Assembly: GCA_013002405.1 (NCBI GenBank)
Contig: JABDKA010000215.1
Location: 1-33,412, forward strand
Direction: 5' to 3'
Length of the DNA stretch: 33,412 nt
DNA from: Sulfitobacter sp.
GTDB taxonomy: Bacteria > Pseudomonadota > Alphaproteobacteria > Rhodobacterales > Rhodobacteraceae
How positions within the stretch are numbered: position 1 is the stretch's first letter; the number at the start of each line of letters is the position of its first letter. Below, piece after piece: positions 5,143-12,515 of the stretch. Under the pieces are notes generated by a model that saw nothing but the letters and a program-made list of their open reading frames with translations, made no database searches and was not told the origin of the DNA. A program made the position numbers and the translations under genes.

Positions 5143-6045
5143 TCAGCGGCGGATGGCAACCCGCGCGGCCAGCCAGCACACGAACATCGTTGCAAAATCA
5201 ACCGGCAGCCAGGCCTGAAGCGCTTCCCCCTCCGCCATCGAGAAGGGGGCAAGATACAGCGACAGACCCGACAGGTTGTCGGGCAGGGCGACGATGAGGA
5301 TGGCCGATACATTGTTGAAGAAGTGCACGGCAATGGCGGGCCCGAGGGAGCCCGAGCGCGCGGTCAGATCTGCCATCAGTATGCCGAAAATACCCGCCCA
5401 AATGGCGATGGTCAGCGCATTTTCCCCAGCCATATCGGGCAGATAGTGGCCCAACGCAAAAAGGAAGGCAGGCAGGACCATCCAGATCAGCGGGCTTTTG
5501 AAGCGCGCCGCCAGTTGCTGCTGCACATAACCGCGAAAGACGATCTCTTCGGCGCTGACCTGCACGAAGACCGCGATCAGGGACAGGGGCAGCAGGCTGA
5601 GCCAAAGCCTGGGTTCAAGGTTCGGGACAAAGGCGCCCCCCATATCGTAGGGCGGCAAGAGCACGATCGCGAGAGCGACGCCCAGGAGGGCGAAGAGAAC
5701 CCGGCGCAGGTCCCGCCAGAAGACCCGCATCGGCCCCAGCAGGCTGAGGAATGAACGCTTGTGCAGGATACGTGCACTGATCCCCACCCCCACGGCCATG
5801 AAGCCAAAGCTGAAGAGCAGCAGGAACATGGTAAGCGGCGTCGCACCCGAAACCAGATCCCGGTGCAGGGCCGCACTGTTGGGTTGGGCCAGCGCATAAG
5901 CGGTGGAGAAGTAGATCTGGCTCAGCGAAAGATAGGCAAAGCCCGCAAGGATCCCGCCCAGCAAAAACCGCCAGAGTTCCGAGTGCGGGCGCGCGGGTGC
6001 CACGTAGGTCTCGTGCGGCCTGTAGGCCTCTGCCGGTGCCCTCAT
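5143..6045 (-). CDS. CPBP-family intramembrane metalloprotease
   Basis: The 300-residue protein has about eight hydrophobic segments and all signature motifs of the CPBP (ABI/CAAX-prenyl-endopeptidase-like) family. These are EExxxR at Glu166, Glu167 and Arg171, FxxxH at Phe196 to His200, and HxxxN at His241 to Asn245. These residues form the glutamate/histidine metalloprotease centre of Rce1-type enzymes, so it is probably active. Known relatives cleave prenylated proteins, process peptides or confer bacteriocin immunity; the substrate here is unknown. Its ATG overlaps the stop codon of the upstream ABC-like gene as ATGA (6042-6045), so the two products are probably made together and may act together in the inner membrane. 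The first 25 residues are polar and would be cytoplasmic. Confidence 0.88.
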   Translation of the reverse strand: MRAPAEAYRPHETYVAPARPHSELWRFLLGGILAGFAYLSLSQIYFSTAYALAQPNSAALHRDLVSGATPLTMFLLLFSFGFMAVGVGISARILHKRSFLSLLGPMRVFWRDLRRVLFALLGVALAIVLLPPYDMGGAFVPNLEPRLWLSLLPLSLIAVFVQVSAEEIVFRGYVQQQLAARFKSPLIWMVLPAFLFALGHYLPDMAGENALTIAIWAGIFGILMADLTARSGSLGPAIAVHFFNNVSAILIVALPDNLSGLSLYLAPFSMAEGEALQAWLPVDFATMFVCWLAARVAIRR

Positions 6046-9000
6046 TCCGCCTCTTCCTTCTGGTCCGGTTGGTGCGGCCCGTATTCGCGCGGCACCTCCA
6101 TCCCGGCGGCCAGCAGCACGTCCGCAGCACCGGACAGGTGGCTACCCACGGTGCGCAGAAGGCTAAGCAGCACGGTTGTGTCTGTCTCCATCACCGAGCG
6201 GAACTGCTCTGCACCGATGCGCAGGAACTGCGAATCCTCCAGCGCGATCAGGTCCAGTTGGCGCGGTTCATCCAAAATGATCGCGAGATCGCCGATCAGG
6301 CGGCCCGGCTCAACCTCCGACACGTGGCGCAGGGTGCCATCGCTTTCCATCAGGGCCAGTTCCGCACGACCCGAGAGGCACAGATAGACGGCATCCGCGC
6401 GGTCCCCGGCGGCAAAGATGCGCTTGCCCCGTTCCGCATCATACCATTGCGCGGCGAAGGCAAGCAGGCGGCGGCTGCGGTTGTCGAGGTTGGCGAAAAG
6501 CTCATTACGCGACAGGATGCGCAGCTTGCGCCGCAGATCGTCAGAAGCGCTGTCATCCTGACTGGGCAGTTCCGCCTGCGCCAGACCGTCGATGCGGCCC
6601 TGCCGCACCTCCACATGGAGGTCGAATTCGGACGGATTGGCGAACTGATCGTTGATGTAGATCTGCGTGGTGTCCGGCAACAGCTTGCTGAGGCGCTTGC
6701 GGATCTTGGCCTGGGCTTCGGCGTCATGCCCGGCCAGAAGCTGATTGAAGATAAGGACATCGGGCCGCTTGATTGCCGCGCGGCCAAAGGCGGCCCGTTC
6801 CTGAAAGATCGTCGGCAGGTTGGTTCCGCCAATGGAGGTATGGATATCGAAGAGGTTGGTAGAAACCATCTGCTTCAGCCCGTGCTCCTCCATCACCTGC
6901 CCCACCATGTCGCGCACCAGATCGGCCTGCATGCCGGCCATCGAAGAGATCCGACCGTAGAGGACGTTTTCCAGGATGGTGAAACGGGGCAGATAGTTTT
7001 CGGGCGCGATTGGCACGAAAAGGCCCTTGGACCTTTCCCGCAGAAGGGGCGCGTTGTTCTTGCGGATGCGCAGGATCTCTTCCTTGAAACTTTCCGGGAA
7101 GGCAGGACCGATCTGTTCGGCGGTAAAAGCAAAGGGCACCGTCAGCAAAAGGGCGAACTCTTCCTGGCTGAGGGCTGCATCGCCCTTCTCCCGGCGGCGG
7201 GCGGCAATGTCGACCAGCTGCTCGTAAAGCTCTTCCTCAATCCCGATGGCGCGGAACAGCGGGTGATCCGTTCCATCCCTACCAAAGGTCTGGTGCAGCG
7301 TTTCAACCAGCGTCTGGGAAATGGCGATACCCTGTTCGGCAAGCCCCTGTTCGATAATCATCGCAAGGAATGCCTTCTCGGCGACCAGGCCCTGCTGGCT
7401 GATGTCGCGCACGGGCGCGGCAAACATCAGGTTACCACCCAGAGGGACCGCTGGATTGAACTCATCGGGGTCAAAACGGTAGACAACCTTGTCCAGCCCC
7501 TCTTCCTTGAGCCTTTCGTAAACCTCCTCCCGGATATCAACGATCCGCCTGGCCAGTTCCGGGTGTTTTTCGGGATCCATCAGTGAATTCATCATCCGCT
7601 CAAAGAGGGTATCCGCGGTCCCCAGGGCCGTCGTGATCTCAAACCAGAACTTGAGGATATCTTCACGGTCGTTCAGTCCGGCGATTTCCGGATCGAGCCA
7701 GTCTGCGTGGGTACTGTCGAGACTGTTGCCAGAGCGTTTCGCCTCAAGCGCCGCGCGGTCCTTGCGGTCGGGATCCCAAAGCACGGTCTTGGGACTTGTC
7801 CGCAGAGGCATCAGCAGGTTGTCGCCCACCGTGCCCTGAAACAGATAGGGCTGCGCGTGGGCATAGCCGATGCGGGCGGCCAGGACGGCCTGATGGAGCT
7901 CGTCCAGATCATGCCCCGCCATCGTGATCCTGCCCCGGCTTGGCATTATTTCACGGGTCAGCAGTTCCGCCATGGCCGTGCGTTCGGCCTGTGTAGCGGC
8001 CTCTACCGCGACCTGGCTGCCCGCTGGGATGTGCAGGGTGATATCGTCCAGAACCATGTTTCCATCCCGGTTTCGGACGCTGACCTTCTGAAGGTCGATG
8101 TCACCGCGGAGGTGGGGGATGGTTTCGGGTCGGCCTTCGAAAAGTTTCTCATCGATCATGCCTGCGGGGGCAAACCGTTCCGTAACGACATCCCAGCGCA
8201 GGGACATGTCCTGGGTTTGGTTGTAGTAGGTCAGAAGCTCCTTCCAGGGGTTTGAAAGATCCTTGTAGGCTGCCAGCGCCGCCACAAGGGCTCCGACCGT
8301 GATCTCCCCCCGGATGGCGAGGAAGCCGCCAACCGCGTAGAAGAAGAAGGGCGTCAGCTGTGTGATGAAGTTGTTGAGGAACTTCATGAAGAATTTCTTC
8401 TGGTAGATGCGGAAACGCACGTCGAAGAGGCGGTGCAACCGTTCGGTGAAGACCGCAAGCCGGTAACGCCAACCGCCGTTTGTGCGCAGGTCGGTGATGC
8501 CTGCGGCGGTCTCACCGATCTCAGCCGCGAAATGTCGGATTTCGACGATCCGTTCCTTGTTCAGCAAATTGATCTGCCGCTGCAGCATGGGGATAAGGTA
8601 CGCCTGCAGCGGGATCAGGGCGACACCAGCCAAACCGAACCACACGCTTTGCAGGAAAAGGAAGCTGACAATGACAATCATCTGACCGGCCTGAAAGACC
8701 GGCTGAGCGATGGCGTCACCCATCAGTCCACCCATCGGCTCTGCCTCAGAGGTGATCATGCTGACCAGTTCGCCCTGGCTGGTCTCATCGTAGTAGCGGC
8801 GCGGGAAGCGCATCATGCGGTTGATCAGCGTATAGCGAAACCGCCGCAACATCCTTTCGGCCAGGACCCCCTTCATCGTGTTGAGCCGCATCTTCAGCAG
8901 GCCGTGAACGACCACGGAGGCGAGGTAACCAAAACAGAGTGCAAAGAGGAAATTGACCTGGCTGATCTGATAGCCCCAGACGTTGATCACGTTCTGCTCG

Positions 9001-9143
9001 GCACCGATGGCGTCGTTGATGATGCGCTTGGGCAGTTCCAGCGTGGCGTAGAGGAAAGGGAATGTGAAAAGCGTGAAGGCAAGCAGGAACAACTGCTGCC
9101 TTCGCGAATACTTCCAGATGAAGGCAAAAATGCTGCGTTCCAT
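6042..9143 (-). CDS. ABC-exporter-like protein with degenerate ATPase domain, large insertion and C-terminal cyclic-nucleotide-binding domain
   Basis: The 1033-residue protein opens like a type IV half-ABC exporter: a membrane domain at residues 1-325, then the start of a nucleotide-binding domain at about 350. Compared with canonical exporters every catalytic motif is altered. The Walker A region (381-390) reads [10 protein letters not shown], with Arg388 in place of lysine. The Q-loop position is alanine (about 430). LSGGQ is replaced by LPTIF (776-780). The Walker B pair Asp-Glu is Asn800-Gln801, and the H-loop histidine is Asp832. About 280 residues (about 440-720), mostly charged helix, are inserted between two similar segments, GTVGDNLL and [14 protein letters not shown]-like cNMP-binding domain occupies about 880-1000. 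It probably does not hydrolyse ATP in the normal way; a sensor or scaffold role is inference. It is coupled to the CPBP protease gene downstream. No frameshift is seen, so it does not look like a decaying gene. Confidence 0.8.
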
Positions 9144-11717: not shown

Positions 11718-11741
11718 ATCCCCAAAAGGTTGCGGGCGAGC

Positions 11742-12515
11742 ATGTCAAAGATCGGCATAGGATTTCTGAACGGTGGGATGTTTTCGGGCCAGGTCCAGCG
11801 GTGGGTGCGGGCCGCGCGCAAGGCGCGACATATCGATCTTGCCGTCCTGCGCCGTCAACGCACACATGCACTGGCGTTGAAGTACCACCTGGACAAGCTC
11901 ATCCATGTGGCTGATGACCGGCTGGGCCTGCCCAAGATCGGGTCGAGCGCGGTACCCAGGCCGCACAACGCCGACTGGGCGTGGCGTCCCGACCTCTGGC
12001 GTGGCAGATTGCCGGTGCCGGGTCTGACCAACGTGGAAAGCAAGTCGCGGCTGGGCGAGGAGGTCACGCTTTTTCACGATTGCGACCGGTCGGAACTGAC
12101 CCTACGCCAGATCCGCAACCTGAGGGAAGAGGACCTGGCCCCCTTCGGCCTGCGCATGGATGTTTTTCAGTTCGATGGCTCCTTTCTCTCCATTGTCGTC
12201 GATCTTCCGCCGGAAGGAACCATCAATCTGCTGCGCACTCATATCATTCGGATGGACGCTATTCTTGAGCTGGAAAAGCCGATTGAGATCTTTGCCCGAC
12301 TTAACATCAAGAACGGCCCCAACACCGAACAGATCGTAAAGGAACTGCCGGTGTATGAGGATCATCACCGGGTTGAGTTCGATCTCGCCTATTCAAACCT
12401 GAACGAAAAACGGGTGGAGCGGGCCTGGGTCGATGTCATTTTCGAGGGGCCGCAGATGAACCAGGTAGTGGTACGGGATCTGACCTTTTCCCGGCGTCCG
12501 CGCGCACAGATCTAG
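11742..12515 (+). CDS. Conserved hypothetical protein (possibly DUF6478)
   Basis: The product is a soluble protein of 257 residues with no signal peptide or membrane segment. The N-terminal 60 residues are basic (RWVRAARKAR, RRQRTHALALKYHLDK). The C-terminal two thirds look like a beta-sandwich, with alternating hydrophobic strands such as DGSFLSIVVDLP and RAWVDVIFEGP. It resembles a Rhodobacterales family I believe is DUF6478, but I could not check this. I chose the ATG at 11742, although a TTG twelve bases upstream is in frame and neither has an ideal ribosome site. It is followed after 20 bases by a 121-residue gene on the same strand, and both end before a strong terminator, so they form a likely two-gene unit. 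No function can be assigned. Confidence 0.8.
   Translation: MSKIGIGFLNGGMFSGQVQRWVRAARKARHIDLAVLRRQRTHALALKYHLDKLIHVADDRLGLPKIGSSAVPRPHNADWAWRPDLWRGRLPVPGLTNVESKSRLGEEVTLFHDCDRSELTLRQIRNLREEDLAPFGLRMDVFQFDGSFLSIVVDLPPEGTINLLRTHIIRMDAILELEKPIEIFARLNIKNGPNTEQIVKELPVYEDHHRVEFDLAYSNLNEKRVERAWVDVIFEGPQMNQVVVRDLTFSRRPRAQI

Follow-up and report, generated by a model that had tools for sequence, protein, structure and literature searches.

ATP-binding cassette (ABC) exporters of type IV (ABCB-like), such as MsbA, TmrAB, and TM287/288, are among the closest described relatives of a gene located in a 33,412-nucleotide stretch of Sulfitobacter sp. DNA (GenBank assembly GCA_013002405.1, contig JABDKA010000215.1, positions 1 to 33,412, the whole of which is called the window here). 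The gene encodes a 1033-residue protein, the pseudo-exporter, which shares with these exporters the ABC_membrane family, the scaffold of the nucleotide-binding domain (NBD), and the predicted fold, but which differs from them in having lost all of the catalytic motifs, in containing a repeat-bearing insert of approximately 270 residues, in ending with a cyclic nucleotide monophosphate (cNMP)-binding domain, and in having a transmembrane domain (TMD) that is more conserved than its NBD. The one consensus composite ATP site that characterizes the half-degenerate TM287/288 type is not found either, the window chain being without the Walker residues and the signature.

According to its published description (PMC10986499), HetC of Nostoc PCC 7120 is an ABC exporter that includes a C39 peptidase and carries a cNMP domain at its N terminus, and a catalytic residue of its ATPase is required in vivo; the cNMP domain bound ppGpp in vitro, and its thermal protection by cAMP was not significant. 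The likeness consists in an exporter polypeptide with a cNMP-type domain, and the difference in the C-terminal position of this domain in the pseudo-exporter, in which no peptidase domain was found with Pfam at E values up to 1 and the ATPase residues are absent. HetC is the nearest system encountered in the literature on ABC exporters that bear cNMP domains or are degenerate or pseudo-ATPases and on the S. meliloti genes, where titles and the openings of abstracts, with most subscription literature outside the search, gave no description of the family. We lean toward the view that the pseudo-exporter is an ancient, ATPase-dead exporter that now serves as a cNMP-responsive membrane regulator or scaffold.

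Domain organization of the pseudo-exporter

The gene and its parts are as follows.

6042..9143, minus strand: pseudo-ABC exporter/cNMP fusion gene, 1033 amino acids (open reading frame and Pfam)
8124..9143, minus strand: exporter-type TMD, residues 1-340, the most conserved part (Pfam, alignment, and model)
7803..8123, minus strand: first (N-terminal) pseudo-NBD half, residues 341-447 (Pfam and profile alignment)
7980..7982, minus strand: Arg388 codon at the Walker A Lys position (profile alignment)
7854..7856, minus strand: Ala430 codon at the Q-loop Gln position (profile alignment)
6999..7802, minus strand: helical insert of ~270 residues (448-715) (model and repeat comparison)
6570..6998, minus strand: second (C-terminal) pseudo-NBD half, residues 716-858 (profile alignment)
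6804..6818, minus strand: LPTIF (776-780) at the LSGGQ position (profile alignment)
6741..6746, minus strand: Asn800-Gln801 at the Walker B Asp-Glu position (profile alignment)
6648..6650, minus strand: Asp832 codon at the H-loop His position (profile alignment)
6114..6488, minus strand: C-terminal cNMP-binding domain, residues 886-1010 (Pfam and model)
6261..6293, minus strand: phosphate-binding cassette, residues 951-961 (alignment of 104 sequences)

The open reading frame (ORF) starts with ATG and runs through its 1033 codons with zero internal stops. In Pfam, ABC_membrane (PF00664) covers residues 52-291 (1.7e-18, 67.8 bits against a cut-off of 28) and cNMP_binding (PF00027) covers residues 904-988 (1.7e-15, 57.2 bits against a cut-off of 27.5), while ABC_tran is matched over residues 365-461 only, with 18.8 bits, under its cut-off of 25; no domain besides these three was found in the protein at E values up to 1. 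With the insert excised, the pseudo-NBD aligns with the NBD of an intact exporter at 99.7% in hhalign. A preliminary description made from the sequence had claimed that the ABC framework was kept and that a cNMP-binding domain closed the protein, and both claims are borne out, with ABC_tran falling below its own threshold.

The AlphaFold2 model of the single chain, for which 66 family sequences were the input, has a mean pLDDT of 83.9 and a pTM of 0.70, with weak stretches at residues 161-174 and 288-297. In Foldseek it matched P-glycoproteins, TmrAB, and PCAT1, with partial overlaps and large gaps: TM-scores against the TmrAB chains were 0.48-0.60 by target length and 0.29-0.35 by model length, and overlays on full-length P-glycoprotein were poor. 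Since the model is of this quality and its matches are ABC exporters, it gives no hint that the catalytic motifs lie elsewhere in the chain, a displacement that was rejected on the model together with the profile alignment described below.

Loss of the catalytic motifs across the family

Motif positions were mapped by aligning a profile of the family NBD, from which the insert had been cut out, to an intact exporter from the same genome. All five substitutions that the preliminary description had placed by eye (Arg388, Ala430, LPTIF, Asn800-Gln801, and Asp832) are at the right sites. The motif alignment started from 196 ORFs, of which 156, all of at least 750 amino acids, remained after removal of identical ones, and these were divided by identity to the window protein into 104 nearer relatives (at least 37%) and 52 distant ones, the latter including L206, which was placed there without a qualifying match to the window protein itself.

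None of the 104 nearer relatives has Lys388, none has Gln430, and none has His832; Glu801 is found in one. In the 52 distant relatives, Lys388 is present in 25, Ser/Thr389 in 2, Gln430 in 9, Asp800 in 6, Glu801 in 24, and His832 in 15, and these alphaproteobacterial proteins are, judged by the same residues, semi-degenerate. The full set of Lys388, Ser/Thr389, Asp800, and Glu801 occurs in 0/156 sequences, as does the combination of Lys388 with Ser/Thr389 and Asp800, and no sequence retains more than 4 of the 6 core residues. From this pattern we infer the loss of ATP hydrolysis.

The expectation that the same substitutions would be conserved was correct for one site and incorrect for others. 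Arg388 is kept in 87 of the 104 nearer relatives and lies at entropy percentile 30 among NBD sites, whereas positions 389, 778, 779, 801, and 832 lie at percentiles 77-93 in the nearer clade and so belong to the more variable NBD sites. This variability indicates that it is the loss itself that is fixed, and not one set of replacements; catalysis thus appears to be lost without one fixed new set of residues.

On a quick TMD tree of 59 family rows, with SH-aLRT as its only support measure, the nearer clade forms one group (SH-aLRT 100) and the state of Lys388 requires at least 12 changes. The placement of the outgroup and of rows without an NBD on this tree is unsure because of the long branches there.

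Selection and conservation by domain

The median dN/dS, from 23 pairs at 80-98.5% identity with medians taken over pairs with dS below 1.5 (14-20 per region), is 0.073 overall, and 0.055 for the TMD, 0.099 for the N-terminal NBD half, 0.081 for the insert, 0.048 for the C-terminal NBD half, and 0.065 for the cNMP domain; single pairs reach about 0.23 in a region. The assertion that an open frame of 1033 codons argues against random decay has accordingly held up, with random decay rejected on these values (~0.05-0.10 by region) and on synteny.

In a 91-row alignment of sequences longer than 900 amino acids, with duplicates removed and the window protein included (L073, a 723-amino acid copy at a contig end, and L076, a 398-amino acid ORF, are not part of it), 54% of the TMD columns are at least 95% conserved. 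Across 15 same-genus genomes, identity within the family is 0.835 for the TMD, 0.669 and 0.619 for the two NBD halves, and 0.666 for the cNMP domain, whereas in one ordinary exporter taken as the control from the same 15 genomes the NBD (0.856) exceeds the TMD (0.829) and each of the five motifs is a single string. The order of conservation in the pseudo-exporter, with the TMD far above the NBD, is therefore reversed relative to that exporter. A family-wide loss of motifs under purifying selection is well supported by these comparisons and, along with the frozen phosphate-binding residues of the cNMP domain and the existence of relatives with no NBD, both described below, it makes the pseudo-ATPase state proposed at the outset well supported.

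The cNMP module in fused and separate form

Residues 951-961 of the cNMP domain form what we take to be the phosphate-binding cassette. Gly951 and Arg961 are each present in 104/104 nearer relatives, and position 952 is acidic in all of them (Asp in 93, Glu in 11). The residues that follow Arg961 mostly differ in these proteins from Ser/Thr-Ala, the consensus after the cassette arginine of cNMP-binding domains.

All 104 nearer proteins have the fused cNMP domain, as compared with 2 of the 52 distant proteins, the other 50 being without it. Elsewhere, the exporter-like gene is followed on the same strand by a separate cNMP protein of ~150 amino acids, the cluster of which spans 33 loci, including 29 of the 32 distant loci taken with wide flanks, and the gap between the two genes is within 100 bases in 25 of 32 measured. 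A G[ED]..R pattern occurs in 32 of the 33 proteins of this cluster, 30 with Glu; one member, L111, is only a fragment, from a fused copy that is broken.

The two-gene relatives, which are found in Rhizobiaceae and other Alphaproteobacteria, belong to the same family, have the insert, and keep the order of exporter then cNMP, but differ from the fused form in that the cNMP protein is unfused, the motifs are partly lost in many of them, and glycosyltransferase (GT) neighbors are recurrent. On pSymB of S. meliloti R28 the pair is annotated as "ABC transporter ATP-binding protein" and "Crp/Fnr family transcriptional regulator," and the ABC protein, read by eye in translation, has Gly where Walker A would have Lys, and its Walker B position reads Asn-Gln. 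SMb20813 may be the S. meliloti gene of this family. One report names SMb20813 as an msbA homologue (PMC10945364). The S. meliloti protein MsbA2 (SMb21191; PMC3687685, with further treatment in PMC12239276 and PMC5596199) is likewise exporter-like and tied to polysaccharide genes, but it is a different gene on the same megaplasmid. It was considered and rejected as the S. meliloti counterpart on position, the ChvI-bound fragment of its operon being given at 938 kb on pSymB in PMC3687685 and the homologue lying at 841.7-844.4 kb in strain 2011.

Relatives without an NBD

Stand-alone proteins of ~430-470 amino acids match only the family TMD, with about 40% identity. Three of them (L112:3857-5275, L113:3680-5077, and L183:5677-7074) are exporter TMDs with a ~110-residue N-terminal extension. 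The L183 gene has a multicopper oxidase, a plastocyanin-like protein, and a cytochrome c as neighbors by Pfam, and of the corresponding gene clusters the plastocyanin-like one occurs at 8 loci and the cytochrome one at 7. These three copper-locus proteins keep 29 of the 30 TMD residues that are invariant in a 66-row family alignment, and this retention in the absence of an NBD suggests that the conserved work of the TMD is feasible without any NBD. A second, shorter kind of 324-353 amino acids (L118:3965-5026, L119:1044-2057, L120:3950-4990, and L102:3932-4906) is more distant, with 20 of the 30 invariant residues in each of the four proteins; the L118 gene adjoins oligopeptide-type ABC importer genes.

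A repeated unit in the NBD insert

The insert (about residues 448-715, mostly helical), which was absent from the preliminary description, splits the NBD between the Q-loop and the signature, and its ~270 residues account for a Q-loop-to-signature distance of ~345 residues. Segment 540-590 matches segment 692-745 (hhalign 98%, E 1.6e-14), and each is similar to the native stretch after the Q-loop, 405-455 (80% and 72%, respectively, with E 1.4e-5 and 3.5e-5), such that a post-Q-loop unit around "EN[LI]xFG" has apparently been repeated twice, with the copy at 692-745 extending from the insert into the start of the second NBD half. Internal expansion by repeated post-Q-loop hairpins is unusual for an ABC domain. 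The distant family members examined also carry an EN..LFG unit, and for this reason the unit seems to predate the complete loss of the motifs.

Distribution and genomic neighborhoods

A contig scan found 317 relatives, 80 of which were kept. Matches are present in 36/36 same-genus genomes (60 genomes searched): 30 have a copy with at least 67% identity, G005 among them only in pieces at contig ends, 5 have a best copy of 52-54%, and one (G026) has only a TMD match at a contig end. A full-length copy of the family with an open frame is present in 34 of the 36, and diverged paralogues are common in the genus. The window's own genome encodes a second fused paralogue that is 50% identical (G000:C220:24618-27620; L101:3971-7003) and in which the catalytic residues are also absent. 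Matches occur in 58 of 190 genomes of a class-wide sample (E 1e-60) and in 22 of 299 genomes of a phylum-wide sample (1e-90), 21 of the latter being in the window's class. The 339 plasmid records with a match are led by Rhizobium (144) and Sinorhizobium (80), and are mostly annotated as "ABC transporter transmembrane domain-containing protein" or "ABC transporter ATP-binding protein," annotations that may mislead for members of this family.

The exporter gene overlaps the next gene by four bases:

5143..6045, minus strand: intact gene for an Rce1-like CPBP intramembrane protease

Residues E166, E167, R171, H200, H241, and N245 of this protease, which correspond to the active-site residues of CPBP proteins, are present in 63/63 aligned sequences, the window copy included. 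The ABC permease/CPBP fusions of NCBIfam NF041647 likewise join an ABC-type membrane protein to a CPBP protease, but the window CPBP protein aligns with no more of that model than its protease end, with 36.7 bits against a cut-off of 435. The gene order in the window's clade is ilvD (divergent), pseudo-exporter, CPBP protease, accD, and folC, and in the 80 loci the neighbors include AccD in 64, FolC in 63, CPBP in 62, and IlvD in 57, several loci ending at contig ends. Beyond ilvD lies a DUF6478 gene (window 11730-12515), which is near 60 of the 80 relatives.

The surroundings of the distant relatives include two recurrent glycosyltransferase clusters, one at 31 loci (27 of the 32 distant ones among them) and the other at 30 (26 of the 32). 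A methyltransferase recurs at 21 loci. The genes tested at L161 and L149 matched Glyco_tran_28_C, Glycos_transf_1, and Methyltransf_17 in Pfam, and L161 also has a histidine phosphatase gene. Across loci L149-L180, a cluster that recurs in Alphaproteobacteria combines family-28-like and group-1 glycosyltransferases with methyltransferases and the two-gene exporter/cNMP pair. By its annotation, the pSymB locus of S. meliloti R28 has the order GT, GT4, GT, methyltransferase (opposite strand), ABC, Crp/Fnr, and FkbM methyltransferase.

A defense system and a phage origin were considered for the gene and rejected: PADLOC matches to defense systems were weak and came via the cNMP domain only, and the matches to phage families in PHROGs were to two families named ABC transporter.

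Discussion

The pseudo-exporter would be a dimer in which the pseudo-NBDs keep their fold without hydrolyzing ATP and act as a module for coupling and dimerization. The cNMP domain would bind a phosphate-bearing ligand, either a cyclic nucleotide or a similar compound such as ppGpp, and binding would shift the pseudo-NBDs and hence the TMD, which would act as a regulator, scaffold, or gate and not as an ATP-driven pump; a ligand-gated or scaffolding role is plausible. A cAMP or cGMP ligand would be available, given the 16 class III cyclase-domain matches in the window's genome. The CPBP protease encoded by the overlapping gene is a plausible downstream partner in the window's clade. As to origin, the distant relatives form a two-gene system in the glycosyltransferase clusters of many Alphaproteobacteria, with the ATPase residues already partly lost, and the tree suggests that fusion and the completed loss of motifs came later, in the window's lineage.

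Several observations weigh against this reading of the pseudo-exporter as an ATPase-dead, cNMP-responsive protein. Asp800 is retained in 60 and Ser/Thr389 in 54 of the 104 nearer relatives. Homologues with the catalytic Lys, Glu, and His, the finding named beforehand as contrary to a pseudo-ATPase, do exist: Lys388, Glu801, and His832 are kept together in 8/156 sequences, all of them among the 52 distant relatives and none among the 104 nearer ones, and some members of the family may therefore still use ATP. At the cNMP site the nearer group differs from the separate proteins, with Asp for Glu in 93/104 and Gln962 in 63/104, the separate proteins having mostly Thr at the latter position, so that its ligand may be a different one or its binding weak. 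An orthologue is not universal even within the genus, 6 of the 36 genomes being without an orthologue-level copy, and broken copies exist, as in G028, where a copy found only in pieces (L111:3998-5369) represents paralogue decay. The CPBP neighborhood is limited to syntenic relatives, with the Moritella and Granulosicoccus loci lacking CPBP, which makes the link suggestive and not independent, and it could be an inherited gene order. Finally, the NBD-less relatives fall outside the family, and their branches are long.

As the main rival we see a flippase of glycans or lipids that is independent of ATP, a transporter of glycolipid or polysaccharide that works without an ATPase of its own, by facilitated or ion-coupled movement, with the cNMP domain as a regulatory gate. 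The recurrence of glycosyltransferases and methyltransferases around the distant relatives, as in the GT-GT4-GT-ABC-Crp/Fnr-FkbM order on S. meliloti pSymB, and the status of the TMD as the most conserved domain speak for it, but the window clade lies outside such clusters, between ilvD and CPBP-accD-folC, and we know of no established class of ABC exporters that transport without ATP coupling; we regard it as unlikely, though worth serious attention. Degenerate-site heterodimers are well known among exporters, and the best PDB sequence match of the window protein is TM_0288, a subunit of such a heterodimer, so one could imagine that the pseudo-exporter is a passive half whose partner supplies the ATPase activity. 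A chain that lacks both the Walker residues and the signature would, however, disable both composite sites, and 46/46 loci held a single member of the family's own gene cluster. No second exporter was found among the identified recurrent neighbors within ~4-6 kb on each side, where some neighbors were unidentified and an unlinked partner was not sought. A heterodimer half is quite improbable in our estimation.

Hydrolysis of ATP by the nearer group through noncanonical residues such as Arg388 appears more improbable still: the retention of that arginine and the co-occurrence of Ser/Thr389 with Asp800 in 32/156 sequences would fit it, but the complete absence of Gln430 and His832 from the nearer relatives, the single Glu801, and the lost signature stand in opposition. 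The least credible of the alternatives is a decaying, dispensable gene. The lost catalytic sites, the fragmented G028 copy, and the six same-genus genomes without an orthologue-level copy are what such decay might look like, but 34 of the 36 genomes carry a full-length open frame, the 35th (G005) has its pieces at contig ends, and the median dN/dS of 0.07 and the synteny point the other way.

The individual parts and the fold of the pseudo-exporter are already known, and the titles and abstract openings searched showed no case of their combination, in which family-wide motif loss, a repeated insert, and a cNMP domain at the C terminus go together with relatives that have no NBD. Kinases and proteases offer familiar examples of pseudoenzymes; a widely conserved family of full-length ABC exporters with a complete ATPase site in 0/156 sampled sequences would be unusual. 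We advance only tentatively, as something rather less than probable, the broader proposal that this lineage of exporter TMDs left ATP-driven transport to become an ATP-independent core, run by a cNMP-type sensor in fused or two-gene form and free of any NBD in the copper loci. The graded intermediates, with partial loss and a split cNMP protein, and the endpoints, one dead and fused and the other with the NBD absent, would make an exporter fold without ATP directly testable. If the proposal is true, ABC exporters would have given rise to a new class of membrane receptor, channel, or scaffold that responds to nucleotides, and the window's clade would possibly steer an intramembrane protease. 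The family also hints that cyclic nucleotides or alarmones have an output at the membrane of marine Roseobacter-group bacteria and rhizobia.

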